This document shows positions 4,729-18,221 of a stretch of DNA of 64,000 bases, in pieces (position 1 is the stretch's first letter; each line of letters begins with the position of its first letter). The position numbers were made by a program, and so were the translations under genes. The notes below the pieces were generated by a model. It saw only the letters and a program-made list of their open reading frames with translations, was not told where the DNA came from and searched no databases. The DNA is from Treponema denticola (GTDB lineage: Bacteria > Spirochaetota > Spirochaetia > Treponematales > Breznakiellaceae): positions 1-64,000 of the forward strand of contig DYPP01000007.1 of NCBI GenBank assembly GCA_020719845.1. The letters run 5' to 3'.

Positions 4729-7074
4729 TCAGACCGTAACCACCCGCCTGCGCATCAGGGCAAAGGCGGTGACGGTCAAAGCCAGCAGGACCAGCGCCAC
4801 GGCGATCCAGAGGATTTGTCCTCCCTCCGCCAGCTGGTAGTAGAGGGTAGCCGTGATCCAGGCCAGTACGGTCAGGTAGATGACCGAAACCCAGCCGAAG
4901 AAGGGGCCGATCTCCCGCACCAAGGCGCCCAGCGCGGCCAGGCAGGGGAAGTAGATCAGGACGAACAGCAGGTAGGCGTAGGCCGCGTGGGGGCTGTCGT
5001 GGAAGTGGCCGCGCATGGCGGAAAAGATGCCCTCGTCCGCTCCGATGCCTTCCGCCACCGCCGCTTCGTCCCCGCTGATCAGGGACAGGCCCAGGGGGTC
5101 CAGGATCGATTCCGCCAGACCGGAGAAGGCGTCGCCGATGGAGGCGAAGGCGGCGCCGAACTCGGCGAACAGGCTCCATTCCTCGGTTTCCGTTTCATCA
5201 TCGGTGGCCGGCGCTTCGGCTTCCTGCGCCGCTGTCTGCGCCGCGTCGAGCTGGCCGTACAGGCCGTTCAGGGTGCCCACTACCGCTTCCTTGGCGAACA
5301 GGCCGGTAAAAAGGCCCACCGTGGCGGGCCAGTTGTCCCGCTGGATGCCCATGGGGGTGAATACCGGGGTAATCGCCTGGCCCACGGCCGCCAGGACCGA
5401 GGTCTCCGAATCTTCGTTGCCGAAGCTGCCGTCGGTGCCGACGGAATTGAACAGGCCCAGCACGGCGACGGTGATAACGATGACCGTTCCGGCCCGGACG
5501 GCAAAAGCCTTGAGCCGGATCCAGGAGTACTTGAGCAGGTCGATGAAGCGGGGGAAGTGGTAGGACGGCAGCTCCATGACGAAGGGCGAGGTTTCGCCCC
5601 GGAACAATGTGGTCTTGAGCATGAATCCCGTGGCCACGGCCAGCAGGATGCCCACCAGGTACAGGCTGAGCACCACGGCGCCGGCGTTGCGGGCAAAGAA
5701 GGCTGCGCCGAACAGGGCGTAGACCGGGAGCCGGGCGCCGCAGGACATGAAGGGCACCATGAAGACCGTCAGGTAGCGGTCCCGCTTGTTCTCCAGCGTC
5801 CGGGTGGCCATGATCGCCGGTACGGAACAGCCGAAGCCGACGATCATGGGAATGAACGCCTTGCCGGGCAAGCCGATGGCCCGCAGCAGGCGGTCCATGA
5901 CGAAGGCCGCCCGGGCCATGTAGCCCGAGTCTTCCAGAAAGGCGAGCATGAAGAACATGGCGAACATGATGGGCACGAAGGTGGCCATGGTCTGGATGCC
6001 CGCGCCGATGCCGCCGGCCAGGAACGCCGTAAGCCAGACCGGCGATCCCAGGCCCTCCAGCAGCCGGCCGAAGCCGTCCACAAAGACCGCGCCGAAGGCG
6101 ATGTCGAAGAAATCGATGAAGGATCCGCCGACGTTGATGACGATCCAGAACAGCAGGTACATGATGCCCAGGAAAATGGGGAGCCCCAGGAAGCGGTTGA
6201 GCACCACCCGGTCCAGCTGTTGACCCGCGCCGGCCTGTCCGCCGCGGACGGCTCTGGCGGTGCGGCAACGACGGACCGCGTCGGCGATGTAGGCGTACTT
6301 GGCGGAAGCGATCACGCTGTCCGGAGCGTCCTTTTCGGCGGCTTCGATGTCCTTGACCGCAGCCGCCCGTTCCGCCTCGTCCAGGGCATTCAGCTTGCCG
6401 ACCTTTTTCGTCAGGTATTCGTCCCCTTCCAGGACCTTGATCCCCAGCCAGCGCTGATCCGTGCCCAGCTCGACGGCCACGTCCCGGAGGCGGCCCGACC
6501 AGCGGTCCAGGCACGCCTCGACGGACGCGGGGTAGGAGACGGAAACCGGGGAGGGGGCAACTTTGCCGATCAGTTTGGCCAGTTCGCCTTTCAGGCGCCG
6601 GATATCCGCGGGTTTGACGGCGCTGACCGCCAGCACCGGCACGCCCAGGGTCCGGGACAAGGTATCCGGATCGATGGTCAGGCCCCGCTTTTCCGCCAGG
6701 TCCATCATGTTCAGCACCACGACCAGGGGTACGCGCATTTCCACCAGGTTGAGGGTCAGAAATAGGTTGCGCTCCAGGTTGGAAGCGTCGACGACGTTGA
6801 GGACCAGGTCGGCTTCCCGGGAAAGCAGGTAGTCCCGGGCGATGCGCTCGTCCTCGGAATGGGACGACAGGGAATAGATGCCCGGCAGGTCGACGGCTTC
6901 GATCGACAGCTGGGGAGCGCCCCCCAGGACGGAGGATCCGATCTTCTTCTCCACGGTTACGCCCGGCCAGTTCCCGACCCGCTGCCGGGAGCCCGTAAGC
7001 CCGTTGAACAGCGTGGTCTTGCCCGAATTCGGATTCCCCGCTACGGCGATGACGGTCTTGGTTTCTCCGCTCAT
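4729..7074 (-). CDS. feoB: Ferrous iron transport protein B (FeoB)
   Basis: FeoB imports Fe2+ across the inner membrane. The 781-residue chain starts with a GTPase domain: G1 GNPNSGKTT at residues 13-21, switch Thr in GVTVEK near 40, G3 DLPG at 62-65 and G4 NMMD at 122-125. A helical spacer follows, then the polytopic Gate/Core region (about residue 285 on), including MIVGFGCSVPAIMATRTLENKRDR and FMVPFMSCGARLPVYALF, both conserved Cys-containing FeoB motifs. An acidic insert, APATDDETETEEW, lies near residue 610 between transmembrane segments. It overlaps feoA by four bases and starts after GGAGGG. The upstream operator at 7339-7356 suggests control by the neighbouring DtxR-type regulator. 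Confidence 0.97.
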   Translation of the reverse strand: MSGETKTVIAVAGNPNSGKTTLFNGLTGSRQRVGNWPGVTVEKKIGSSVLGGAPQLSIEAVDLPGIYSLSSHSEDERIARDYLLSREADLVLNVVDASNLERNLFLTLNLVEMRVPLVVVLNMMDLAEKRGLTIDPDTLSRTLGVPVLAVSAVKPADIRRLKGELAKLIGKVAPSPVSVSYPASVEACLDRWSGRLRDVAVELGTDQRWLGIKVLEGDEYLTKKVGKLNALDEAERAAAVKDIEAAEKDAPDSVIASAKYAYIADAVRRCRTARAVRGGQAGAGQQLDRVVLNRFLGLPIFLGIMYLLFWIVINVGGSFIDFFDIAFGAVFVDGFGRLLEGLGSPVWLTAFLAGGIGAGIQTMATFVPIMFAMFFMLAFLEDSGYMARAAFVMDRLLRAIGLPGKAFIPMIVGFGCSVPAIMATRTLENKRDRYLTVFMVPFMSCGARLPVYALFGAAFFARNAGAVVLSLYLVGILLAVATGFMLKTTLFRGETSPFVMELPSYHFPRFIDLLKYSWIRLKAFAVRAGTVIVITVAVLGLFNSVGTDGSFGNEDSETSVLAAVGQAITPVFTPMGIQRDNWPATVGLFTGLFAKEAVVGTLNGLYGQLDAAQTAAQEAEAPATDDETETEEWSLFAEFGAAFASIGDAFSGLAESILDPLGLSLISGDEAAVAEGIGADEGIFSAMRGHFHDSPHAAYAYLLFVLIYFPCLAALGALVREIGPFFGWVSVIYLTVLAWITATLYYQLAEGGQILWIAVALVLLALTVTAFALMRRRVVTV

Positions 7075-7319
7075 TCCGCTACCCTCCGGACCAGCAGGAC
7101 GTCGGCTTCCGCCTTGCGCAGGCTGAGCTTGAATCCCCGCAGTTCGATTTCCACCGGATCCCCGAGGGGGGCGACCCGGAGCAGGGTGAAGCGCACGCCC
7201 TTGGTCAGGCCCATGGACAACAGCCTGTCCCGATACGACTGTTCGGACCGGTCGAATCCGACCAGCTCCCCGGTGTTTCCCGGCGCGAGGTCGCGCAATT
7301 TCATAGTCTCGGCTGCCAT
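7071..7319 (-). CDS. feoA: FeoA, SH3-like partner of FeoB (first copy)
   Basis: An 82-residue FeoA-domain protein with the typical order: LAPGNTGELVGF, DRLLSMGLTKGVRFTLLRVAPLGDPVEIELRGFKLSLRKAEADVLLV. FeoA proteins are small cytosolic beta-barrels that assist FeoB. The start is set at ATG 7319 because a perfect AGGAGG lies eight bases upstream; an in-frame ATG at 7334 would sit before this site. It overlaps feoB by four bases. Its promoter region carries the palindrome at 7339-7356. Confidence 0.93.
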   Translation of the reverse strand: MAAETMKLRDLAPGNTGELVGFDRSEQSYRDRLLSMGLTKGVRFTLLRVAPLGDPVEIELRGFKLSLRKAEADVLLVRRVAE

Positions 7320-7338
7320 AGTTATCCTCCTCAAGATA

Positions 7339-7356
7339 TATTAGGTACGTCTAATA
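7339..7356 (-). promoter_or_regulatory. Putative DtxR-family operator in front of feoA-feoB
   Basis: A TATTAG half-site, six-base spacer (GTACGT) and CTAATA half-site form a perfect 6-bp inverted repeat. The core TTAG-N6-CTAA resembles DtxR/IdeR-type boxes. It recurs, sharing CGTCTAA, at the promoter of the adjacent dtxR gene. It lies about 20 bases upstream of the feoA start and overlaps an AT-rich -10-like TAATAT on the minus strand, so bound repressor would block transcription. Confidence 0.7.
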
Positions 7357-7372
7357 CCAGGAATAAAAAAAC

Positions 7373-7588
7373 TCACCCGACTTCGATGGCTTCCGCCATT
7401 CCCCGGCCGATCATGACGCTCGTGCCCAGGACGTCCAGCACCAGGGGACCCCGATCCCCACCCTGCACTTTGCGCACCCGCACCCCGGGCACGATGCCCA
7501 GCCGCAGCAGATGATCCCGCAGACCCCGTCCGCCCTGAATGCGGACGACCACGCCGCCGCCGCCGTCCTCAAGCATGCCCACGCTCAT
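7373..7588 (-). CDS. feoA: FeoA-domain protein (second copy)
   Basis: A 71-residue FeoA-like protein: GGGGVVVRIQGGRGLRDHLLRLGIVPGVRVRKVQGGDRGPLVLDVLGTSVMIGRGMAEAIEV, i.e. the G-x-x-x-x-L-x-x-L-G-I-x-P-G core and the terminal GRGMAEAI. GGAGGG precedes ATG 7588 by five bases. The gene starts inside the last 20 bases of dtxR, so it is probably translationally coupled to the regulator, while the other feoA is coupled to feoB. Two FeoA proteins with one FeoB are common in some lineages. The role of this copy, next to the regulator, is unknown. Confidence 0.88.
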   Translation of the reverse strand: MSVGMLEDGGGGVVVRIQGGRGLRDHLLRLGIVPGVRVRKVQGGDRGPLVLDVLGTSVMIGRGMAEAIEVG

Positions 7589-8105
7589 GCGTTCCCTCCG
7601 GTAGATTGAATCCCGTGCCTTCAAAATAGTCGTCCAGGGACACCGGCACGTCGGTGTCCTGGTTTCCCGTCGCCTTGAATGCGTTGAAGCCGCCCATGAG
7701 GTCCGCGCCGCAGGTGTCGGTGGTGTACAGGTACTTGACGAACTGCAGCAGCCGGACGTAGACGGGCCGGGGAATGATGTGCTCCATCCGGCAGGCGGTG
7801 GCATCCGCCGTGGCCTGATCGATGCCCAGGATATTCATGAAGAAATATTTGAAGAGCCGGTGCTTCTCGGTTACCCGCAGGGCGACCTCCAACCCGGCTT
7901 TGGTCAGGCTGATGATCCCGTAGGGTTCATAGTTGATCAGGTTGCGTTTTTCAAGGCTTTTCAGGGCGGAAGTCACCGACGGATTGCGGACTTTCAAGGC
8001 TTCGGCGATGTCCTTGACCCGGACGCCGTTCTTTTTGACGATGATCCGGTAGATCGCCTCCAAGTAGTCTTCCAGGGCTTCGGTGAGTTCCGTGGTATTC
8101 CGCAT
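7569..8105 (-). CDS. DtxR/MntR-family metal-dependent repressor
   Basis: A 178-residue regulator. Residues 10-75 form the winged helix-turn-helix (VRVKDIAEALKVRNPSVTSALKSLEKRNLI), followed by the metal-binding dimerisation domain. Putative metal ligands are Asp13, Glu16, His82, Cys105, Glu108 and His109 (LEDYLEAIY, EKHRLF, ACRMEH). Asp13 is the MntR-type choice, whereas Cys105 is the DtxR/IdeR-type choice. The C-terminal tail of about 40 residues is not a clear SH3 domain. Its own promoter carries the same palindrome as feoA-feoB, so autorepression plus control of iron uptake is likely. No ribosome-binding site precedes the ATG, and the predicted transcription start falls on it. Confidence 0.9.
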   Translation of the reverse strand: MRNTTELTEALEDYLEAIYRIIVKKNGVRVKDIAEALKVRNPSVTSALKSLEKRNLINYEPYGIISLTKAGLEVALRVTEKHRLFKYFFMNILGIDQATADATACRMEHIIPRPVYVRLLQFVKYLYTTDTCGADLMGGFNAFKATGNQDTDVPVSLDDYFEGTGFNLPEGTHERGHA

Positions 8106-8163: not shown

Positions 8164-9459
8164 TCAGCGCAAAAAGACGCGCAATTCCAGGGTGCCGTCC
8201 CAAAGCGCGGGACCGGCGCCGAATTCGGAACGGTCCGGGCCGTAGTAGGCCCGGGTCCGGAAGGAAACGATCAGGGCGTCGAAGGTTTTGGCCGTCCGCA
8301 CCGAGGCGACGCCGCTGCCGTCCTGCAGGTTGTGGGCGTTTACGGCCTCCACGGTAAGGCCGTCGCCCAGATCCTGGGTGTACCGCTCCATCAGGTAGTG
8401 CCGGGCCAGGCCGAAGGCCCCATAGGCCGCGGCGGGACTGAAGGCGACGCTCCCGGTTTGGTTGTTCAACCGTTCCAGGTCCAGGGCCCGGTCCAGGTCG
8501 TCGCCGGAAAGCCCCTGCCGGTTGTAGTAGTATTCGGCCATCAGCGTGATTGAGTCCGTGGGGTCGTACTCCAGGTTGACCGAAACCCGGGGGAACCAGC
8601 GCAGCTCTTCCTCCCGGAGCGTCAGGGGCTCGACGGATTCCACGACCGCAAGCGTCGCGGTCTGGGTCAGCGCGGCGTCCAGCCGCAGCACCCAGGCGTC
8701 GGCGGGCAGCCAGGACGCGTTGGCGCCGAAGCGCCAGTCCCCGGCTTCGCCCTTTTCCCCCGCCCGGGAAGCCAGCAGGGCAAAATCCGCCGGGCCCAGC
8801 CGGGACCCGAACATCAGCGTGTGGCCCCAGCTGGTCTGGGGCGAGCCGAGGGCGGTTGAAAGATCGTCGTCAGGGTCGAAAACGGGAGCGTAGAAATAGC
8901 GCAGACCGCCGAAGGCGGTCAGCCATTTCAGGTCGACGCCGATGAGGCCCTCCCGGATCAAGCTGTCGTTGTCGTCGGCGGCGCTCTCCCGGAATCCGAA
9001 CAGGTCGCTGGGGGCCATGAACAGGCCGGCCCCGGCTTCGATCTTCTTTTTACCCAGGTCGATGAACAGGCCCGGAAAGGCCTGCCAGGCCAGGCCCAGC
9101 TCTTCGGCCTTGCCCTGGAAGTCCACCTTGTCCGGATCCGGCGCGTCCGGCCGCCCCGCGGGCGAGGTGGTCGCCGCGGCGGCGTAGACGCCGTGGAACG
9201 AAAGGCCCAGGGGCAGGTGCTCGCCGTCCCAGGACAGCCTGGTCAGGCCTTCGCCCCACGAATGGTCCTGGGCCAGCTCGACTCCGGGACCGGGGCTGGC
9301 GCGGTAGGACAGCGTCGTCGTCCGCAAGACGGTTTCCAGGTTTAGCCGGCCCTGGAAGACCACAGGCGGCGCGTCCGGCATAGCAACTTCCTGCGTCCGG
9401 GCCGCGGCGGCGGAAAGAAGCAGCAGGGCCGGCAGGGTGATTCTAGCCCAGGGGGACAT
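8164..9459 (-). CDS. Predicted outer-membrane beta-barrel protein
   Basis: A 431-residue exported protein with signal peptide (ARITLPALLLLSAAAARTQ). The mature part consists of repeated amphipathic strands rich in aromatic and Gly residues (GLRYFYAPVF, SVNLEYDPTDSITLMAEYYYNRQ, ALIVSFRTRAYYG) and ends in the strand GTLELRVFLR, in keeping with an outer-membrane barrel. The start at ATG 9459 overlaps the end of the LolA-like gene by 17 bases; the longer upstream frame has no secretion signal. Being last in an exporter, LolA-like and Omp85 operon, it may be the exported cargo or the outer-membrane acceptor. No named porin family is recognised. Confidence 0.65.
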   Translation of the reverse strand: MSPWARITLPALLLLSAAAARTQEVAMPDAPPVVFQGRLNLETVLRTTTLSYRASPGPGVELAQDHSWGEGLTRLSWDGEHLPLGLSFHGVYAAAATTSPAGRPDAPDPDKVDFQGKAEELGLAWQAFPGLFIDLGKKKIEAGAGLFMAPSDLFGFRESAADDNDSLIREGLIGVDLKWLTAFGGLRYFYAPVFDPDDDLSTALGSPQTSWGHTLMFGSRLGPADFALLASRAGEKGEAGDWRFGANASWLPADAWVLRLDAALTQTATLAVVESVEPLTLREEELRWFPRVSVNLEYDPTDSITLMAEYYYNRQGLSGDDLDRALDLERLNNQTGSVAFSPAAAYGAFGLARHYLMERYTQDLGDGLTVEAVNAHNLQDGSGVASVRTAKTFDALIVSFRTRAYYGPDRSEFGAGPALWDGTLELRVFLR

Positions 9460-10216
9460 ACTTGAACTCCTCCAGGTATTCCTTGCGGTAATACAGCTCG
9501 GGCAGCTGCTTGTCCGCCAGTTTGAGGTAGCGCATGATGGTCCGTTTGGACTGGTCCAGGGCATCCTGTATTTCAAGGGTCAGCGGAATTTGGTAGCCCT
9601 TCCAGTCGGTGTAGTCCCGGTAGCGCACCTTCTTCATCAGCTTGCCGCTCTCGGCATAGAAGTCGCCGCTCAGGGCGCGCAGGCCGGCCTTTTCGACGAT
9701 CAGGACGATGCGGCTGTAGGTGCTGCCCCGCTTGGCGGCCTTGACCTTCAAGTCCAGTTCGTACACTTCGACCCCTTCCCGCTGCTTGACCGCACTGGTG
9801 ACGACGTCGTAGTCCCAGGAAAAATTGGTCCGCGCCACGTCGCCGTTGGCCGCTTCGCCCAGCAGCACCTGCATGGGCGAAAGCCGGATGGGATTCCGGG
9901 TATTGGGAAACAGCATCCAGATAAAATTGCCGTCCATGAGCATTTTCCGGCCCCGGATGGCGGCGGGTTCGTTGAAGTAGAGCAGCGACGTGTTGCCCCG
10001 GGGGGTATTGCGGATATAGCCGGTCAGCTGGTAGGAATCCTTCAGCTCATCGCCTACGGTGGCGTCGATCTGCATCAGGAAGGCAAAGCTGTCCAGACCC
10101 CGGTTGGCGTCCATGCGCTTGAGGATGTCGTCCCCCTCGGCCGCAAAGACGGCCGGCCGGGCAAGCAGGCACAATAGGGTCAGCGCAAAGGCAGGTCGTC
10201 CGACGATTCGTTTCAT
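9443..10216 (-). CDS. LolA-like outer-membrane lipoprotein-sorting protein (periplasmic)
   Basis: A 257-residue exported protein with signal peptide FALTLLCLLARPAVFA. The mature chain, DDILKRMDANRGLDSFAFLMQIDATVG, TPRGNTSLLYFNEPAAIRGRKMLMDGNFIWMLFP and YELDLKVKAAKRGSTYSRIVLIVEK, follows the LolA-like fold described for the outer-membrane lipoprotein-sorting family that often accompanies ABC or RND exporters. The start is ATG 10216, five bases after GGAGG. It directly follows two FtsX-type permeases and probably carries a lipid-modified or hydrophobic cargo from them to the outer membrane. Confidence 0.8.
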   Translation of the reverse strand: MKRIVGRPAFALTLLCLLARPAVFAAEGDDILKRMDANRGLDSFAFLMQIDATVGDELKDSYQLTGYIRNTPRGNTSLLYFNEPAAIRGRKMLMDGNFIWMLFPNTRNPIRLSPMQVLLGEAANGDVARTNFSWDYDVVTSAVKQREGVEVYELDLKVKAAKRGSTYSRIVLIVEKAGLRALSGDFYAESGKLMKKVRYRDYTDWKGYQIPLTLEIQDALDQSKRTIMRYLKLADKQLPELYYRKEYLEEFKYVPLG

Positions 10217-10238
10217 ATAACCTCCGTTCAATCGCGGT

Positions 10239-11492
10239 TCAGACGGCTCGGAGAGCCTCGGTGATCGAAATTCTTACGCCCCGGGCGGCGGGGAACAATG
10301 TTCCCGCCAGGGTTGCGGGCAGGGTAACCAGGGGATACCGGGCGATCCGGGCCAGGTCGGGGGCAAAGTACATGGTCAGGGGATTGTCCATCCCCGGCTG
10401 GGCCGGAAAGGTGATGCCCCCGGCCAGGTTGATCGCCTGGCAGCTCAGGAGACCCAGGGCGATGCCGAGGGCCGAACCCAGCAGGCCCAGGTAGAACCCT
10501 TCGGCCATGAAAACCGCCAGCAACCGCCCGCGGGTGGTGCCCAGGGTCCGCAGGGTCCCGATTTCCCGGCTGCGCTCGAACACCGACATGGACACGGTGT
10601 TGGCGATGATGAAGGCCGACACCAGCAGGATGATGGCCAGGGCGACGCCGAGGATCAGGCCGTAGGCGCCGCTGGCCTGGCGGTAGTATTCGGAAAGTTC
10701 CGACCAGGTCCGGATGGCGGCCCGGCCGCCTGAAAGGGGCAATACTTCGTCCGCCAGCTCGCGGCGGACCGCCTCCGTGTCTTCGGTCCGTTCCAGAAAA
10801 ACGAGCAGCTGGGGCACGTCGGTGACCAGCAACAGGCTGCGGGCGGTCTCCAGGGGCAGGTAGGCTACGGCGGCGTCGTAGGCGGCGATGCCGCTGGACG
10901 AAACGCCGACCAGCTCCAGGTCGATCAGGTTGACGCCTCCCCCGGCCATGGCGGACATCAGGTGCAGCGGGTCGCCGACCCGGGCGCCGACCTTGGCCGC
11001 CAGACCGACGCCCAGCACGACGGCGCCGGCGTCGCCGGGCCGGATATCCCGACCTTGGACGATGGACCGGAAGTCAAGGGCGGCCGTAAAGGCTTCCGGC
11101 GGCAGGGCGACGGCCTGCACGGTCTGGGAGACGCTGTCCCGCCGGAGTACGGCCTGAAAACTGAGGGAAGGGAATACGGAGCGCACCTCCGGATTGGCCC
11201 GCAGCGTCTGGATCAGCCGGTCCGAGTCGGGCAGCAGGTAGGAAAAGGGGTCCGCCGAACCTTCGTTGAAAAAGCCTTCGCCGCCTGCGATCTGCAGGTG
11301 CCCGGTGCCGCTGTGGATCACCGTTTCGCCCAGACCCCACATGGAATAGGTGACGAAGCCGTCGATCAGCAGCACCCCCCACAGGCCGATCACCAGCGAC
11401 AGCAGCGTCAGCAGGGTCCGGCGCTTGTTGCGCAGCAAGTTGCGCAACGCCAAGGTGCTGACGGCGCCGATGCTTTCAAATAACGCGTACAT
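10239..11492 (-). CDS. FtsX/MacB/LolC-type ABC permease 1
   Basis: A 417-residue inner-membrane protein with the MacB/LolE layout: helix 1 near residues 25-45 (NKRRTLLTLLSLVIGLWGVLLIDGF), a large periplasmic domain of about 210 residues, then three C-terminal helices (GLILGVALAIILLVSAFIIANTVSMSVFERSREIGTLRTLGTT, a typical FtsX signature). It starts after GGAGG and follows permease 2 by nine bases. With permease 2 and the ATPase it should form a heterodimeric mechanotransmitting exporter like LolCDE. Confidence 0.88.
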   Translation of the reverse strand: MYALFESIGAVSTLALRNLLRNKRRTLLTLLSLVIGLWGVLLIDGFVTYSMWGLGETVIHSGTGHLQIAGGEGFFNEGSADPFSYLLPDSDRLIQTLRANPEVRSVFPSLSFQAVLRRDSVSQTVQAVALPPEAFTAALDFRSIVQGRDIRPGDAGAVVLGVGLAAKVGARVGDPLHLMSAMAGGGVNLIDLELVGVSSSGIAAYDAAVAYLPLETARSLLLVTDVPQLLVFLERTEDTEAVRRELADEVLPLSGGRAAIRTWSELSEYYRQASGAYGLILGVALAIILLVSAFIIANTVSMSVFERSREIGTLRTLGTTRGRLLAVFMAEGFYLGLLGSALGIALGLLSCQAINLAGGITFPAQPGMDNPLTMYFAPDLARIARYPLVTLPATLAGTLFPAARGVRISITEALRAV

Positions 11493-11501
11493 TCTGGCCT
11501 C

Positions 11502-12722
11502 CTACACGGACCGCAGGGTTTCGGCCACGGTCAACCGGGCCGCCTTCCAGGCGGGAACGATGGCTCCGAAAAAGGCAAAGACCGTGACCACCGCCATGGT
11601 GGACAGGCTGTGGTCCAGGGTAGGCCGGAAGGCGATGCGCACCCATTCCTTTTCGTACAGAAAAGAGACGCCGCCGAAGACGTTGAACAGGGCGCTGAGG
11701 CCGTAGCCGGCCAGCACCCCCGCCAGGCTGCCGGCCAGTCCGATGACGCCGCCTTCCAAAAAGATCAGGGCGAACAGCCCGATTCTGGTCGTGCCCACCG
11801 CCCGGAGGGTGCCGATTTCGCGCATCCGTTCAAAAACGGCCATGGTCAGGGCGTTGGCGGTCACAAACAGGGTAATCAGCAATAAAATGGTCCGGATCAC
11901 CTGCAAAAAGGCGGCGTACATGGCCTCAACCTGGCCGAAATAGACGGCCAGCTCCTTCCAGGTCTTGATCGCAACACCGTCGTCGAAGGCCCGGACGGCA
12001 GCGGCGACCCGGTCTGCAGCCTCCAGGCTATCACAGATTACCGTCAGCGCCGGCGGGGAGACGGTGCCGTTCAGGGCCAGGGCCGTCGGATAGTCCAGGT
12101 AGGCAAAGAGGGCATCGTTGGCGCCTTCAAAAACGCCGCTGACCGTGACGTCCAGGCCGTTCAGTCCGTTCTCGCCGGCTACGCCCATCAGGGTAAGCAC
12201 CGAACCGGGCTGGACGCCCAGGGCGGCGGCGCTGCCCGCGCCGAGCACGATTTCCGGATTCCGCGTATAGGACTTGCCGGCGACCAGCCTGCCCAGCCGG
12301 TAGGGCGTATCCGGGTCCGCGGTCTCGGCCGACGAGAAGGACACCTTGCCCGACGGGTAGCCCTTGACCAGCAGGGTGATCGTCTTGTCGCCATACGCCG
12401 CCAGCGCGGTCAGTCCGGTAACCGGAATAAGTTCCTTTACCTCCGGCAAGGCCGCGATTTTGCGGGCCAGCGCATCGGCGTCGGCTATTTGGTAGGCTCC
12501 GGGGTTGAATTCGCCGTCGGAAAAATACGCCGCCTTCGCGGCGACCTGCAGGTGGCCGATGCCGGACTTGATCACCGACTCCCGGAAGCCCCGCATCTGG
12601 TCGGCGATGAAGCCCTGAAAGACGACCAGGGCGGCGATGCCGACCACGATGGCCAGCAGGGTATGCAGGCTGCGGCGGCGGTTGCGGAACACGTTGCGCA
12701 CCGCCAGCGATAGGGTCATCAT
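11502..12722 (-). CDS. FtsX/MacB/LolC-type ABC permease 2
   Basis: A 406-residue paralogue of the next gene: NRRRSLHTLLAIVVGIAALVVFQGF at the first helix, a periplasmic domain with SGIGHLQVAAKAAYFSDGEFNPGAYQ, then NALTMAVFERMREIGTLRAVGTTRIGLF at the FtsX core. Both permeases share the GIGHLQ/GTGHLQ stretch after helix 1. It overlaps the ATPase gene by four bases. Either ATG of the initial ATGATG pair may be used. Confidence 0.88.
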   Translation of the reverse strand: MMTLSLAVRNVFRNRRRSLHTLLAIVVGIAALVVFQGFIADQMRGFRESVIKSGIGHLQVAAKAAYFSDGEFNPGAYQIADADALARKIAALPEVKELIPVTGLTALAAYGDKTITLLVKGYPSGKVSFSSAETADPDTPYRLGRLVAGKSYTRNPEIVLGAGSAAALGVQPGSVLTLMGVAGENGLNGLDVTVSGVFEGANDALFAYLDYPTALALNGTVSPPALTVICDSLEAADRVAAAVRAFDDGVAIKTWKELAVYFGQVEAMYAAFLQVIRTILLLITLFVTANALTMAVFERMREIGTLRAVGTTRIGLFALIFLEGGVIGLAGSLAGVLAGYGLSALFNVFGGVSFLYEKEWVRIAFRPTLDHSLSTMAVVTVFAFFGAIVPAWKAARLTVAETLRSV

Positions 12723-13417
12723 GACGCCGGCTCCTGCCGGGCGATTTCGGCGATGATCCCATCTTCCATGCGCACCAGGGTCCGGGCGTAGCGGGATACC
12801 CGGGGGTCATGGGTGGCAAAGACCAGGGTGGTCCCGTATTCCCGGTTGAGCTGGAGCATCAGCGCCATGATGCCCTCGCCGGTGGCGTGGTCCAGGCTGG
12901 CCGTGGGTTCGTCGGCGATGACGAAGAGGGGCCGGGTGATCAGCGCCCGGGCCACGGCGACGCGCTGCCGTTGTCCGCCGGACAGTTCGTCCGGCCGGCG
13001 CCGTTCGTAGCCCTCCAGCCCCACCCGGCCGAGCAGATCCCGGACCCGCCGTCGCCGTTCCTTCCGGGGAACGTGCTGCAGAATCAGCGGGTATTCGATG
13101 TTTTCCGCCAGGGACAGGACGGGCACCAGGTTGAAGGACTGAAAAATGAACCCCAGGGTACGATTCCGGAACGCCGACAGTCGGGCATCGCCCATGGAGG
13201 CCGTGTCTTCTCCGTTCACCAGCACTCGTCCGCTGCTGGGGTTGTCGATGGCGCCCATCAGATTGAGCACCGTGCTCTTGCCGCTGCCCGAAGGCCCCAT
13301 CAGGCACAGGATGTCGCCCTGTTCGACCACCAGGTCGACGCCCCGGAGAGCCGGAATTTCCGTCTTTCCCAGGCGGTACTGTTTGGTCACCCGCTCAAAG
13401 CGTACCGATTCGCCCAT
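12719..13417 (-). CDS. LolD/MacB-type ABC ATPase
   Basis: A 232-residue ATPase with Walker A GPSGSGKST, Q-loop IFQSFNLVPVLS, signature LSGGQRQRVAVARAL, Walker B FVIADEPTASLD and switch His in FATHDPRVSRYA. Q-loop wording SFNL and length match the LolD/MacB/FtsE family. AGGAG precedes the ATG. It sits before its two permeases and after the gene for a periplasmic helical protein, which gives an exporter rather than importer arrangement. Confidence 0.92.
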   Translation of the reverse strand: MGESVRFERVTKQYRLGKTEIPALRGVDLVVEQGDILCLMGPSGSGKSTVLNLMGAIDNPSSGRVLVNGEDTASMGDARLSAFRNRTLGFIFQSFNLVPVLSLAENIEYPLILQHVPRKERRRRVRDLLGRVGLEGYERRRPDELSGGQRQRVAVARALITRPLFVIADEPTASLDHATGEGIMALMLQLNREYGTTLVFATHDPRVSRYARTLVRMEDGIIAEIARQEPAS

Positions 13418-13429
13418 ATTCCGCTCCTT

Positions 13430-14191
13430 TCAGCCGCCATAGACGGACAGCTTTTCTTTGGCCTGTCCGGCGGCCTGGCCGGAAGGATCAACCTCTACCG
13501 CGCGGCGCCAGTAGGCCAGGGCCTGGCTCATCTTTTTGTCCTTTTTGGCGATGTTCCCCAACTCCAGCAGGACCTCGCTCAGCAGGGAGGCTTCCAGGTA
13601 GGCCGGATCGCCCTGGGCCCGGTCTTCCAGATATCTAAGATCGCCCCGGGCTTTATCGAGGGTGTTGAAGAATTCCGGCAAGTTTACGCAGACGCTGGCG
13701 CGCACAAAACTGACGATCGGCGTCGCTTCCCGGTATTTGGAAACCGCCTCGTCCAGGTATTTGAGGCCCTGCTTGACGTAGCTCATCTTGTTGAAGGGAT
13801 TGTTGTCCTCGTTGCCCATCAGGGTCCGGGCCGAACCCAGATAGGCCGTCACCAGGGGGCGGTACCGTTCGGGCAAGCTCCGGTCGTCGTAGAGGGTTTT
13901 AAGCAAATTGTAGCTTTTCTGGGCGTAACCCCGCACCCCCGCGGGAAAAAGCGTCCGGCTGGCGTCGTGGAATACGATTCCGGCGCCTATTTTTTCCGCC
14001 GGCGGGCTCGCTTCCCGCAGCTTCCCCTCGATCCGCGACAGATCCGCCTGCAGCGTCCGCTCGTCCCGGGACCGCATGAATTCCGCCAATTCGGCATCCG
14101 CCGCCTGCGCTTCGGATCTATCCAGCGAAAACGCCGGCATCGCCAGGCAGATCGCCAGCATTCCGGCCATCCCTACCCATTTTCCGTTCAT
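13430..14191 (-). CDS. Exported helical/TPR-like protein
   Basis: A 253-residue protein with signal peptide MAGMLAICLAMPAFS and no lipobox. It is nearly all helical; paired helices around YRPLVTAYLGSARTLMG, QGLKYLDEAVSKYREA and a final unit LELGNIAKKDKKMSQALAYWRRAVEVDPSGQAA form at least one clear tetratricopeptide repeat. ATG 14191 follows GGGAGGAACAGG. It lies between the Omp85-type gene and the exporter ATPase, so a periplasmic scaffold role linking exporter and barrel is plausible, though this is inference. Confidence 0.7.
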   Translation of the reverse strand: MNGKWVGMAGMLAICLAMPAFSLDRSEAQAADAELAEFMRSRDERTLQADLSRIEGKLREASPPAEKIGAGIVFHDASRTLFPAGVRGYAQKSYNLLKTLYDDRSLPERYRPLVTAYLGSARTLMGNEDNNPFNKMSYVKQGLKYLDEAVSKYREATPIVSFVRASVCVNLPEFFNTLDKARGDLRYLEDRAQGDPAYLEASLLSEVLLELGNIAKKDKKMSQALAYWRRAVEVDPSGQAAGQAKEKLSVYGG

Positions 14192-14205
14192 CCTGTTCCT
14201 CCCGA

Positions 14206-15402
14206 TTAAAATGGCGCTTCCACCGCCAAGTAAAAACGCGACGTACTGCCGTCGCCCCAGGCCCATTCCAGCCGGAGGGGGACGTAGATCGGCGCGGCAA
14301 AATAGATCCGCAGCGCGGTGCCGTAGCCGAAAAGGGGCGCGCCGAAGGGCTCCCCAGCCTGGGCCGCAGCCGCTCCGGCGTCGGCAAACAGCGCGGGTTC
14401 CAGGGTCACCGTATCCGCCCACAGGCGCAGCGCCTTCCAGCGGAGCTCCAGGTTGGCCTGCCAGACGCCGGACCCGAAACCGCGGTCGGTAAAATTCCGC
14501 CTGACCCCGTCGATTTCCATCAAACTTAAAGCCAGCAGGTCCCGGTCGGCGTCGGTCTGCAGGGCCCCTCCGATCCGCAAAGCCGCCAGCAGGGCATCGG
14601 ACCGGATGGGCTGGTAGATGCGGGCATCCGCCGTCCCCCGGTAAACGCCGTCGGGCGCAAAATTCCGCAAGCCAAACGACATCCGGTGGCCGGGGGCGGA
14701 AAAAAAGCCGCTGGTCGCCTGCCGGGACAGGGTGGCGTCGATCCAGGCCAGGTTTTCCGCTTCTCCATAGTCCGGGGCGTATCGTTGCGACCGAGCGCCG
14801 CCGACGCCGAATCTCCAGTCCCGGGGAAAATCCCACCCCAGGGTCAAGGCGCCGCCGACGTCCTGATAGGGGCGGTCGGTTCCTGCCTGGTCGACGCGGC
14901 TGCCCGGCCGGTTGCCGCCGTCGATTTCCCAAAACAGCCTGCCGAGACCCGTATGGTGATCCGAATAAGCGACGGCCTGGGCGTTGTAGCCTGCCATCAC
15001 GCCCAGATCCTTCCCCGTGCCCCCAAGGTTGGCGATGCCGAAATAGCCGTACGCCGCGCCGCCGCCGAAACGGTAGCGGAACCCCTCGGTCACTTCGACG
15101 ACGACGTTGACCATATCCGGTCCGGCTGTTCCCGGTTCCGCCGCGATGGGCACGGCGATGGCCAGGGCGTCGTAGAAGTAGCCCGTGGCCATCAGCCGGT
15201 CTTCAAGCCGGCGCAACGCCGCGTCCAGGACCGCCGCTTCCCGGACGTCGCCGTCGCGGAAGTCGGAAATGAAGTCCCGGACCACCCCTTCTTGGGTAAA
15301 GGTGTTGCCGATGATCCGGATCGTCCCGACCCGGACGGGTTCCGCAAAAATGCCCCCGCCGGCCAACAGAAACAAAACCCCGACACTGGCCAAGAATCGC
15401 AT
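14206..15402 (-). CDS. Omp85/BamA-family outer-membrane protein with one POTRA-like domain
   Basis: About 398 residues with a signal peptide (FLASVGVLFLLAGGGIFA). Residues 25-110 look like a single POTRA domain: VRVGTIRIIGNTFTQEGVVRDFI, an AALRRLEDRLMATGYFYDA helix and MVNVVVEVTEGFRYRFGGGAAYGYFG. The rest is a beta barrel with NRPGSRVDQAGTDRPYQ, FGSGVWQANLELRWK and PLFGYGTALRIYFAAPIYVPLRLEWAWG, ending RFYLAVEAPF with C-terminal Phe, as in Omp85 proteins. The length is well under BamA (five POTRAs). ATG 15402 after AAGAGG is preferred over ATGs at 15426 and 15423. It is the first gene of the exporter operon. Confidence 0.8.
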   Translation of the reverse strand: MRFLASVGVLFLLAGGGIFAEPVRVGTIRIIGNTFTQEGVVRDFISDFRDGDVREAAVLDAALRRLEDRLMATGYFYDALAIAVPIAAEPGTAGPDMVNVVVEVTEGFRYRFGGGAAYGYFGIANLGGTGKDLGVMAGYNAQAVAYSDHHTGLGRLFWEIDGGNRPGSRVDQAGTDRPYQDVGGALTLGWDFPRDWRFGVGGARSQRYAPDYGEAENLAWIDATLSRQATSGFFSAPGHRMSFGLRNFAPDGVYRGTADARIYQPIRSDALLAALRIGGALQTDADRDLLALSLMEIDGVRRNFTDRGFGSGVWQANLELRWKALRLWADTVTLEPALFADAGAAAAQAGEPFGAPLFGYGTALRIYFAAPIYVPLRLEWAWGDGSTSRFYLAVEAPF

Positions 15403-15414
15403 TGGTATCCTCTT

Positions 15415-15454
15415 AAAGTACATCAACTATATTATGTACTTTATAATATAAAGT
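15415..15454. promoter_or_regulatory. Two overlapping palindromes in front of the Omp85/exporter operon
   Basis: Positions 15438-15454 read ACTTTAT-AAT-ATAAAGT, a perfect 7+3+7 palindrome (8+1+8 if the centre is counted differently). Positions 15415-15442 hold AAAGTACAT-N10-ATGTACTTT, a perfect 9-bp inverted repeat overlapping it. On the minus strand, -10-like TATAAA/TATTAT and a -35-like TTGTTA lie within or next to these. The 17-bp element is repeated at 17008-17024 in front of the operon that encodes a winged-helix regulator, so it is a likely operator. Confidence 0.7.
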
Positions 15455-15525
15455 ATTTTAGCATAACAAAAGAAAGATTTCAAGAGAATAATTATGAATT
15501 CGCCAAGAAATACGCGAATCCGGCC

Positions 15526-16101
15526 CTAATCGGCCCGGGTTTTTTCCCGATTGCTGAGCATGCCCATCAGGCCGAAGGAGAAAAGCATGGCGCCGACGTT
15601 GAGCGCCAGACGCAGAGCGCCCTGTTCCCTGACTTGCGGGATGGCCAGGACCAAGCCCGTAATCAGAAACCATACCCCGCCAAGGCGCAGGGTCCGACGG
15701 TTTTTCATGATCCCCGAACCGTACAGTCCGGCGCCCAGGATAAAAGATATGATCGGGTCGGCTTTGTCCGGCGGTATGAGCGGCACGGCAAGGATGAAAA
15801 AGAAGGGAAAGACCACCAGGAGCAGTACGATGCCGATCCAGAGCAGGTTGAGCTGCTTGCCCCAGTAGGAATTGGTGTTTTCCTTCCGTTTTAAGCAGCG
15901 AACGTACCCCATCTGCCCGGCCAGGCCGACTAACATAAAGCCTGCGTAGACCGCGTAGGAATGGGCCAGCAGGGCTTCCGTCAGCATGCCCAGGGAGATG
16001 AGCGCCCCCCACCAGGCAAAGACTTCGCCGCCTGAGTACTGTTCCCGCTCCTGCCGGTCCTGCATCACCACCTTCAGGGTTTCCAACAACTTCTGTTCCA
16101 T
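15526..16101 (-). CDS. Six-helix membrane protein, paralogue flanking the regulator (downstream copy)
   Basis: A 191-residue protein. A charged N-terminus (EQKLLETLKVVMQDRQEREQ) leads into YSGGEVFAWWGALISLG and then about six hydrophobic helices, with the basic loop MKNRRTLRLGG in the middle and SNREKTRAD at the end. The protein on the other side of the regulator has the same plan, including GEIFIFWG after a similar charged N-terminus. ATG 16101 overlaps the regulator stop (TGATG); an in-frame TTG at 16104 is the alternative. No enzymatic motif is visible. A membrane sensor or partner of the regulator is an inference from gene order. Confidence 0.7.
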   Translation of the reverse strand: MEQKLLETLKVVMQDRQEREQYSGGEVFAWWGALISLGMLTEALLAHSYAVYAGFMLVGLAGQMGYVRCLKRKENTNSYWGKQLNLLWIGIVLLLVVFPFFFILAVPLIPPDKADPIISFILGAGLYGSGIMKNRRTLRLGGVWFLITGLVLAIPQVREQGALRLALNVGAMLFSFGLMGMLSNREKTRAD

Positions 16102-16457
16102 CAATCTGCCCCTTTCCCGGAAGAATCGATCAAGGATTTTACCTGTTCCATCTTGCGCAGATGGGTCTGCAGATTTTCAAAGCCCCGGGAACTGATCCGA
16201 TACGTAGTATGGGGCCGCTTGCCGACGAATTCCTTCTTGGAAACCAGGTAGCCTGCGTCCTCCAGCTTGGTCAGGTTGGCGCTCAGGTTGCCGTCGCTGA
16301 CCTCAAGTTCCTTTTTTAAAAAGTTGAAGTCGACCTCCCGGTACATGGCCAGGATGGCCATGATGAAAAAACGCAGTTCCGAGGTCAGGATCGAATCCAG
16401 GCTATAGTCGCTCGGTGACTCCTCCGGCGCGGTTTCAGGCGCGGCTTTTTTCGTCAT
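16101..16457 (-). CDS. Small winged-helix transcriptional regulator
   Basis: A 118-residue protein. After a charged N-terminus come LTSELRFFIMAILAMYREVDFNFLKKELEVSDGNLSANLTKLEDAGYLVSKKEFVGKRPHTTYRISSRGFENLQTHL: helix-turn-helix, recognition helix SDGNLSANLTKLEDAGYL and wing with RPHTTYRIS. This resembles the winged-helix DNA-binding family often described as MarR/ArsR-like with a GNLSxHLxKLExxGY core. There is no separate ligand domain. It overlaps the upstream membrane-protein gene by 23 bases and touches the downstream one, so the three are surely one operon. The palindrome before the operon and before the Omp85 operon is its likely target. Confidence 0.88.
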   Translation of the reverse strand: MTKKAAPETAPEESPSDYSLDSILTSELRFFIMAILAMYREVDFNFLKKELEVSDGNLSANLTKLEDAGYLVSKKEFVGKRPHTTYRISSRGFENLQTHLRKMEQVKSLIDSSGKGAD

Positions 16458-16983
16458 GCCTGCTCCATATTCCCGGAACGATCAAGCCGAATACCACCGC
16501 GCCCATGAAGATCAGCGGCATGCGGTCGGGAAAGAAGGCGATCAGGACGCTGGCCGCCAGCATCGGCGCCGCCCCCGCGGCGATGCCGGCGCTGCGGGTC
16601 AGCAGGCCGGACATAAACAAGGCCAGGGCCAGCCAGAGCGTCACCATGCTCATGATCGCCCGCGGCGCGTACAGCCCGAACCAGAACGGAAAGACATAAA
16701 ACAAAACCGGGAGCAGGATCAGCATGAAAAGCCAGAGTTCGGTCATCGCCTTTTCATAAAAGATAAGATATCCCGAGCTGCGGCGCAGATGATGAACGTA
16801 CAGACTCTGCGCCAGAATGCCCAAGGGCACCAGCACCAGCCATACCGCCGCGCCGCTGATGACCATGCTGAGCGCGATGCCGACCAGATTCAGGATGCCC
16901 CAGAAGATAAAGATTTCGCCCCAGCTGATTTTTTCCCGCTTCAACCGTTTGGATACGATGGATTCCAGCTTGTCCGTCGACAT
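16435..16983 (-). CDS. Six-helix membrane protein, paralogue flanking the regulator (upstream copy)
   Basis: A 182-residue protein. N-terminus MSTDKLESIVSKRLKREKISWGEIFIFWGILN, then about six helices, with LYVHHLRRSSGYLIFYEKAM as a basic loop after helix 2 and a short basic tail. The GE-[IV]-F-x-x-WG motif after a coiled, charged N-terminus is shared with the protein encoded at 15526-16101. A GGGGGGAA stretch precedes ATG 16983. It is the first gene of the regulator operon, whose promoter holds the 17-bp palindrome. Function unknown; a role in sensing an envelope or lipid signal is speculative. Confidence 0.72.
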   Translation of the reverse strand: MSTDKLESIVSKRLKREKISWGEIFIFWGILNLVGIALSMVISGAAVWLVLVPLGILAQSLYVHHLRRSSGYLIFYEKAMTELWLFMLILLPVLFYVFPFWFGLYAPRAIMSMVTLWLALALFMSGLLTRSAGIAAGAAPMLAASVLIAFFPDRMPLIFMGAVVFGLIVPGIWSRHDEKSRA

Positions 16984-17007
16984 GGTTCCCCCCGTCCTGT
17001 GGGATTC

Positions 17008-17024
17008 ACTTTATTTTATAAAGT
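17008..17024. promoter_or_regulatory. 17-bp palindrome in front of the regulator operon
   Basis: ACTTTAT-TTT-ATAAAGT, the same half-sites and spacing as at 15438-15454. It lies 25 bases upstream of the start codon at 16983 and covers the likely -10 region (TATAAA on the minus strand), which fits autorepression by the winged-helix protein encoded in this operon. Confidence 0.7.
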
Positions 17025-17177: not shown

Positions 17178-18221
17178 CTACGGTTGTCCGGCAAAGGTAT
17201 TGATTGTGTTGAGTTTGCGGTCCGACCGTGCCGCGTAGGGCAGGTAGCCTGCGGCTGTGACGGTCGTAATCCAGTCGGAAACTGTCCCGTTGTGGGATCC
17301 CGTATCCAGGTAGTCCACCACCAGCACTTTTTTGGCATTGTTCTCCGGTGCCCTGATTTGATCGAGATAGGCCCTTCTGTAGGCAGTCTCCCCGGCGGCG
17401 ATGGGCGTGGTTTCGTTGTAGTAGAGGCTTTCGATCCCTATGGCGCTGAGGGTTTTCTTGTAGTCGTCCGGGCCCAGAGAGTCGATGCCCGTGTCGTGGT
17501 CCAGGATGTTTACACCGTTCTGGGGTACGATCAGAAAATCCGTTTTGCCTCTTTCTACCCGGGCATGATGGGCGATGCGCTTGACGAGGTTGATCATGCG
17601 CGCCGCCGCCGCGTCTTCACTAAGGGCAAAGCCTTCTCCGTTTTCGCCGTCGCTCCAGTATTGGAAGGCATCGATTATATCCAGGTAAACCCCGTCGAAG
17701 CCCTGGTCGATGATTTTGTCCAGGTAGCCGAGAACGATCAGCTGCCAGGCGTTCGACCAATACTGGACCTTGTAGTTTCCCTCCCAGTCGGGATTGGTCC
17801 GGTTGAGCCAGCAGGGCGCGCCCGGGCCGGGCTGATCACCGTCCAGCCAGAGCGGATCGAAATAGTACCGGTACGCTTCGGCTTCACCGATGCTCAGGTA
17901 GGCCAGTACCTGTTTCCCGGTACCTCGTATTGCGGCGATATTCTCGGTCGAATACGCGCCCGAATCTGACCCGTCGGCGGAATAGTCCATGACGACGGTG
18001 TCGAAAGCCGAAACCTTCACGTCCTCCGGGTCAGCGCCCTGCAGGATAATGAGCCAATCATCCCCGTCGATCGTCGCGGTGGTGAAGGCGTCGCCTGCGG
18101 CGGCGGCGGTGTCGGCGCAAGGCGTAAAGGAATAGGAATCGGTGCCGCCGCCGGCCGAACACGAGTCGGCGGGCGCCATGGCCAGAACCGCAATCAGAAA
18201 GTAAAACAAAGGTCCTTTCAT
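17178..18221 (-). CDS. Secreted GH114/TM1410-like TIM-barrel protein
   Basis: A 347-residue exported protein with a hydrophobic signal followed by ADSCSAGGG, so a relaxed spirochaetal lipobox at Cys21 is possible. The mature chain matches the glycoside hydrolase 114 / TM1410 pattern: DDWLIILQGAD, FDTVVMDYSADG, GKQVLAYLSIGEAEAYR, ...GFDGVYLDIIDAFQYW, KTDFLIVPQNGVNIL and GIESLYYNETT. GH114 enzymes include endo-alpha-1,4-polygalactosaminidases. Acidic residues in MDYS, YLDIIDAF and GIESL are candidates for the catalytic site. AGGAG precedes the ATG. It is a stand-alone gene between the purL terminator and the regulator operon, probably degrading or remodelling an amino-sugar polymer outside the inner membrane. 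Confidence 0.82.
   Translation of the reverse strand: MKGPLFYFLIAVLAMAPADSCSAGGGTDSYSFTPCADTAAAAGDAFTTATIDGDDWLIILQGADPEDVKVSAFDTVVMDYSADGSDSGAYSTENIAAIRGTGKQVLAYLSIGEAEAYRYYFDPLWLDGDQPGPGAPCWLNRTNPDWEGNYKVQYWSNAWQLIVLGYLDKIIDQGFDGVYLDIIDAFQYWSDGENGEGFALSEDAAAARMINLVKRIAHHARVERGKTDFLIVPQNGVNILDHDTGIDSLGPDDYKKTLSAIGIESLYYNETTPIAAGETAYRRAYLDQIRAPENNAKKVLVVDYLDTGSHNGTVSDWITTVTAAGYLPYAARSDRKLNTINTFAGQP

Follow-up and report, generated by a model that had tools for sequence, protein, structure and literature searches.

A small cassette that encodes a winged-helix regulator of the HTH_34 family together with two membrane proteins is, with a probability of about 0.7 as judged from sequence comparison, a membrane-paired autorepressor module that acts on one further target as well, the neighbouring exporter operon. 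A 17-bp palindrome, very probably the regulator's own operator, marks both the cassette operon (site O1) and the exporter operon (site O2), and very probably the regulator binds these two identical sites, upstream of its own operon and of the export genes, respectively. The pair of regulator and membrane protein is part of a widespread regulatory module, no description of which was found; comparison of related loci leaves little doubt about the identity of the module and of its operator. Positions in the window, that is, in the whole analysed stretch of 64,000 nucleotides, are collected in Table 1.

Table 1. Genes, operators and promoter-like sequence of the two operons, and examples of the A7 barrel family (positions refer to the window unless a locus is named)
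Feature	Position	Strand	Basis
TMu, 182 aa, motif GEIFIFWG	16435-16983	-	ORF list, AF2 model
HTH_34 (PF13601) winged-helix regulator, 118 aa	16101-16457	-	Pfam profile, fold match 1UB9
TMd, 192 aa, motif GEVFAWWG, extra paralogue 3' of regulator	15526-16104	-	ORF list, hhalign
Operator O1, ACTTTATTTTATAAAGT, before the cassette operon	17008-17024	.	pattern search; related loci have palindromes in the corresponding position
Operator O2, ACTTTATAATATAAAGT, over predicted transcription start of exporter operon	15438-15454	.	pattern search
Promoter-like TTGAAA-17-TAAAAT, TG before -10, abutting O2	15455-15483	-	promoter consensus match
Omp85-superfamily barrel, one POTRA	14206-15402	-	profile match
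TPR-like protein	13430-14194	-	profile match
LolD-like ABC ATPase	12719-13417	-	Pfam/NCBIfam
LolC/E-like (MacB_PCD-FtsX) permease	11502-12722	-	Pfam/NCBIfam
Second LolC/E-like (MacB_PCD-FtsX) permease	10239-11492	-	Pfam/NCBIfam
LolA_like (PF17131) protein, start uncertain	9443-10231	-	Pfam
Putative outer-membrane barrel protein, last of conserved operon, start uncertain	8164-9576	-	ORF list
A7 barrel, example	L017:902-1489	-	
A7 barrel, example	L018:1821-2375		
A7 barrel, example	L114:1904-2491		
A7 barrel, example	L174:5733-6209		
A7 barrel, example	L176, gene before 6TM		

The first-pass annotation of this DNA had described a winged-helix regulator between two paralogous six-helix proteins with the motif GE-[IV]-F-x-x-WG, and sequence, open reading frames and a pattern search confirm this arrangement. 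A comparison by hhalign shows TMu and TMd to be paralogues (probability 98, E 1.5e-13), and the AF2 model of TMu (pLDDT 87.6) contains six membrane helices and an N-terminal amphipathic helix. The cassette genes overlap by 23 bp and 4 bp. Since all genes of the cassette and of the exporter operon lie on the minus strand, O2 is located in the 123-bp interval that separates TMd from the Omp85 gene, for which the likely ATG start lies behind AAGAGG (the reading frame itself opens at 15426). TMu occupies the family-conserved position directly upstream of the regulator. Most relatives have a single 6TM protein, and the flanking pair is therefore attributed to a local duplication; in a search of 296 Spirochaetota genomes with the 6TM profile no copy other than TMd was found downstream of a regulator. 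The 3.3 Mb genome, assigned to Spirochaetota from its closest named relatives (L033 and L034), yielded one HTH_34 regulator of the cassette type. Just upstream of the cassette a homologue of GH114 glycoside hydrolases with a signal-peptide-like start is encoded (17178-18221, minus strand).

Both places of the perfect palindrome, given earlier as belonging to the exporter operon and to the regulator's own operon, proved correct, and the genome scan proposed at that time found exact ACTTTAT-N3-ATAAAGT at these two sites and nowhere else in 3,306,793 bases, while the reversed pattern, used as a control, had 0 exact places. With up to 3 mismatches allowed, 34 places were registered in the whole genome versus 53 for the control, which argues against a wider set of weak sites; a graded series of weaker genomic sites was accordingly rejected, none rising above the control. 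Outside the 17 bp, O1 and O2 have no common flanking sequence, so duplication of one segment does not account for the pair of sites.

In related loci the palindrome is found near the start of the membrane gene in 54 of 75 cases, versus about 0.6 expected (0.008 per locus), when searched as the strict pattern xSTTTR-N5-YAAASx with matched second pair at -200 to +80 of this gene; the remainder of the same loci contains 18 such patterns in 638 kb, many of them near the module themselves. Many D-class loci among the 21 of 75 that have no strict site in this interval carry it further upstream or have a near match, and in Treponema-type loci the site stands before a preceding gene of the operon. The possibility that the palindrome occurs widely without relation to the regulator, raised in the first-pass annotation, was not borne out: in 21 Spirochaetota genomes that carry the regulator, 23 exact ACTTTRN5YAAAGT sites were counted, 18 of them at a regulator locus, other Spirochaetota with the module typically have the exact pattern once per genome, at the module, and among 59 relatives palindromes with a matched sixth pair occur only at regulator loci.

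The regulator is assigned to PF13601 with 84.2 bits (curated cut-off 27), remaining below the cut-offs of the PadR family PF03551 (21.4 bits, cut-off 27) and of ArsR-type HTH_5 (16.8 bits, cut-off 22); only HTH_34 passes its Pfam cut-off, and the weaker matches are to other winged-helix families. A PADLOC match to Csa3 (E 3e-5) was read as generic winged-helix similarity and the Csa3-like assignment rejected. PH1061 (1UB9), a solved relative belonging to the same PF13601 DNA-binding family, gave the fold match, with PadR Rv3488 second best. In the model (pLDDT 89.6) D55-G56-N57 opens the recognition helix 55-67, D55 being its first residue. Across the family this residue varies together with base 2 of the operator: D, W or E before Gly-Asn goes with C (CTTT) in 19 of 19 cases, and A, S, Q or R with G (GTTT) in 34 of 35, the exception being L071 (Bombiscardovia), with Ser and a CTTT operator. 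Fisher's test gives 1e-13 for this covariation and 1.5e-8 after thinning to 65% identity, and the regulator of this genome (D55, CTTT) obeys the rule. A tree built with the code residue masked contains 5 changes of residue class and 6 of operator class; independent pairs on supported branches were all concordant in most pairings and none was discordant, their number being too small to reach significance (p 0.125). Two D-class regulators (L139, L143) have ACTCTG-N5-TAGAGT sites. Taken together, covariation, conservation and site specificity are good evidence that the regulator itself reads the palindrome, and conservation, residue-base match and the two genomic sites support the earlier proposal of an operator that the regulator's operon shares with the exporter operon.

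The position of the sites points to the direction of control. O2 lies directly downstream of the promoter-like sequence and abuts its -10 element. Considering the 14 loci with a best promoter-like match of at least 10 of 12, the -10 element starts 11-28 nt before the palindrome centre in 11; the cassette's own promoter at O1 was not recognisable by consensus. A palindrome on or near the start site, and in the case of O2 after the -10 element, corresponds to repressor geometry, and repression of both operons by the regulator appears rather likely on these grounds.

The regulator and its membrane partner are closely associated over a wide range of genomes. From GTDB genomes and Spirochaetota 81 distinct regulators were gathered, and 75 of them have a directly upstream gene for a protein with at least 3 predicted membrane helices (mostly five or six), which usually overlaps or abuts the regulator gene. 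The module was found in Spirochaetota, Bacteroidota, Chloroflexota, Actinomycetota, Myxococcota, Planctomycetota, Pseudomonadota and one Lokiarchaeota genome. The profile search and co-occurrence check suggested in the first-pass annotation placed the 6TM family beside the regulator in 21 of 21 genomes: out of 296 Spirochaetota genomes the 6TM profile matches 21, the regulator is present in 42, and these 42 include all 21 (hypergeometric 7e-21). No 6TM family member without the regulator was found in the 296 genomes, while other operon members change. These sequence data support a near-obligate genetic partnership of the membrane protein with the regulator.

Of the three sequence groups of partners, two can be shown to be homologous (A6-type to A2, probability 96); homology of the A5 partners, of Chloroflexota/Pseudomonadota/archaeal type, to A2 could not be demonstrated (probability 12.7). 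Membrane-gene duplication seems to be recurrent. Three consecutive membrane-protein genes precede the regulator at L044:6024-7969 and L050:6140-7981, L044 having also a GTTT-type palindrome far upstream (about 4695), and the second membrane protein of L033/L034 (178 aa) was not supported as a 6TM homologue (probability 12.6). Nothing in Pfam, NCBIfam, PHROG or PADLOC matches TMu or TMd above cut-off; in Pfam neither TMu nor ten relatives are matched, and TMd has only chance matches below the cut-off. The best fold matches, to acetate/succinate permease SatP (Foldseek E 0.6) and TMEM45A (VIA-align Z 10.3), are within the range of unrelated helical bundles and were not used; thus the 6TM fold, as compared by these two methods, gives no hint of function.

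Distant Spirochaetota share with this genome a conserved operon of the order Omp85-TPR-LolD-permease(-LolA-barrel) (L100, L101 and L103, in genomes G072, G108 and G314, respectively), with a relative of the last barrel protein in G072, which suggests a spirochaetal machine for outer-membrane export or lipid trafficking. Absence of the palindrome before orthologous operons had been named in the first-pass annotation as an outcome that would refute its reading, and for the exporter operon this outcome was observed: neither the palindrome nor the cassette was found at the exporter operons of these three genomes. In G072 and G108 the HTH_34 regulators that turned up all belong to the other specificity class, with Ser before Gly-Asn; the site in G108 is of the GTTT class, no regulator site was found in G072, and G314 has a single weak, partial HTH_34 match only. 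Since the orthologues have no site and the regulators are of another class, control of export through O2 would be lineage-specific rather than ancestral, apparently gained within this lineage. No match to the exporter Omp85 was found on plasmids. After a gap of 58 bp the exporter operon is followed by genes for a DtxR-type regulator and a FeoB-like ferrous iron transporter (4729-8105, minus strand), which by reason of this short gap may be in or next to the exporter transcription unit.

Based on these data one can propose that a dimer of the HTH_34 protein binds the palindrome ACTTT-N7-AAAGT at O1 and O2 and that on O2 it covers the predicted start site, turning the exporter operon off; the regulator would thus repress its own operon and the adjacent Omp85-TPR-LolCDE-like-LolA operon. 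Across the family the regulators, about 95-118 aa long, are winged helices and nothing more, and their alignment contains neither a ligand domain nor conserved Cys/His. Because of this, and of the near-invariant membrane partner, the 6TM protein is the natural source of the signal: most likely the regulator would be taken up or released at the inner membrane depending on the envelope state, coupling the export of outer-membrane material to envelope condition. We infer dimeric binding, repression (from the position of the sites), membrane sequestration, the nature of the signal and the role of the duplicated TMd; for uptake and release of an autorepressor the models are SdpI-SdpR and the LytTR systems. 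The chances that the membrane protein controls the regulator directly are about even.

A simpler scheme, in which the regulator represses its own and the exporter operons and the 6TM proteins are mere effectors with no physical link to it, demands attention, as adjacency and a common operator need no protein contact, and the PadR-type LltR of Listeria represses a DUF1700 membrane protein, effector-like, whose overproduction is harmful at low temperature (PMC6624303). We nevertheless consider it unlikely, because it leaves the winged helix without any sensor domain, and because the membrane gene lies directly upstream, at or near translational overlap, in 75 of 81 loci and the 6TM family was never found without the regulator in 296 genomes, however the rest of the operon changes. 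Improbable, to a clearly greater degree, is a regulator acting as an activator inhibited by its membrane protein: LytTR systems do combine the same two-gene layout with positive autoregulation (PMC6193735), but their sites are direct repeats upstream of -35, while the palindrome here usually lies at or downstream of -10. It is also conceivable that O2 arose by chance as an AT-rich palindrome or was left behind by cassette duplication, the exporter operon then being outside the regulator's control; the site adjoins a duplicated gene and is missing at the orthologous exporter operons. Yet the density of sites away from the module loci gives about 1e-5 for one site within the 123-bp gap, the flanks of O1 and O2 are unrelated, and O2, situated on the 3' side of the duplicated gene, borders on a good promoter, so that we regard this explanation as very improbable.

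The membrane-paired autorepressor favoured here is akin, in its supposed working, to three known systems and is a member of none. LytTR Regulatory Systems (HdrRM, BrsRM) consist of a regulator with a polytopic membrane partner, are autoregulatory and occur in many bacteria and some archaea (PMC6193735); for HdrRM membrane sequestration is reported, according to a title cited in PMC13384398. The present cassette likewise unites a regulator and a transmembrane protein in one operon, but its regulator is HTH_34, with no LytTR DNA-binding domain among the matches, its palindrome is at the -10/start region instead of direct repeats upstream of -35, and repression is predicted instead of activation. 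SdpR is an ArsR-type repressor. In Bacillus subtilis it is sequestered at the membrane by SdpI, autorepressor and polytopic membrane protein being encoded in one operon (PMC1626106). The same composition is predicted here; unlike it, TMu and TMd match no Pfam family above cut-off, that of SdpI included, the regulator stays below the HTH_5 cut-off, and the cassette has no visible toxin gene. For a winged helix, the proposal in print that comes closest is the HAAS-PadR-like wHTH dyad, put forward as an alternative to two-component systems and marked by obligate neighbourhood pairing of a membrane-linked helical protein with a stand-alone winged helix (PMC11237479). Such strict pairing with a stand-alone winged helix was observed here in 21 of 21 genomes; the differences are that the 6TM proteins match none of the DUF1700, DUF1129 and DUF1048 profiles of Pfam, that the HTH_34 regulator is below the PadR cut-off, and that an operator and a residue code were not found described in the passages of PMC11237479 consulted.

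A literature search with PF13601, HTH_34, PH1061 and the operator sequences found nothing relevant, and the membrane partner and operator of HTH_34 proteins appear undescribed in the literature searched. For this common family no described regulon was found; it now has a proposed partner and operator, together with a residue proposed to set specificity. If the proposal is true, a large family is added to the known systems of a membrane protein and a DNA-binding protein, HTH_34 targets become predictable from sequence alone, and envelope information reaches DNA via two or three small proteins. This genome would be a direct test case for envelope state setting the expression of a LolCDE/Omp85-type export operon.

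Targets of the module elsewhere can be compared with the exporter. The O2 arrangement is not an isolated case, as L035 (Myxococcota), L036, L038, L040 and L043 (Bacteroidales) and L045 each have a second operator placed between the regulator and the operon that follows, which in L038 encodes TPR and TonB-plug proteins. The module operon of other Spirochaetota includes A7, a small secreted barrel-like protein that was not found in this genome; of the 15 genomes among 296 that have it, 14 have it beside the regulator. Considering the A7 barrel and the TPR/TonB-plug second operators of Bacteroidales, targets in both groups tend to be outer-membrane proteins. The most general reading, that of a phosphorylation-free membrane-to-DNA module with a 6TM sensor, an HTH_34 protein and a one-residue/one-base code, wired to outer-membrane barrels and export in Spirochaetota and Bacteroidota, would have slightly less than an even chance of being right. 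A7 proteins have an outer-membrane-type C-terminus, G-[LF]-R-F-Y-P, and gene orders barrel-6TM-HTH or 6TM-HTH-barrel; in G093 A7 occurs alone, the stretch of its contig that was read containing neither regulator nor 6TM gene nor palindrome. HTH_34 modules L023-L032, L117 and L120, with A or S before Gly-Asn and GTTT operators, are followed by an ABC ATPase and in many cases by a MacB-like permease, and at L035 a DUF4097 Toastrack protein is encoded beside the module.
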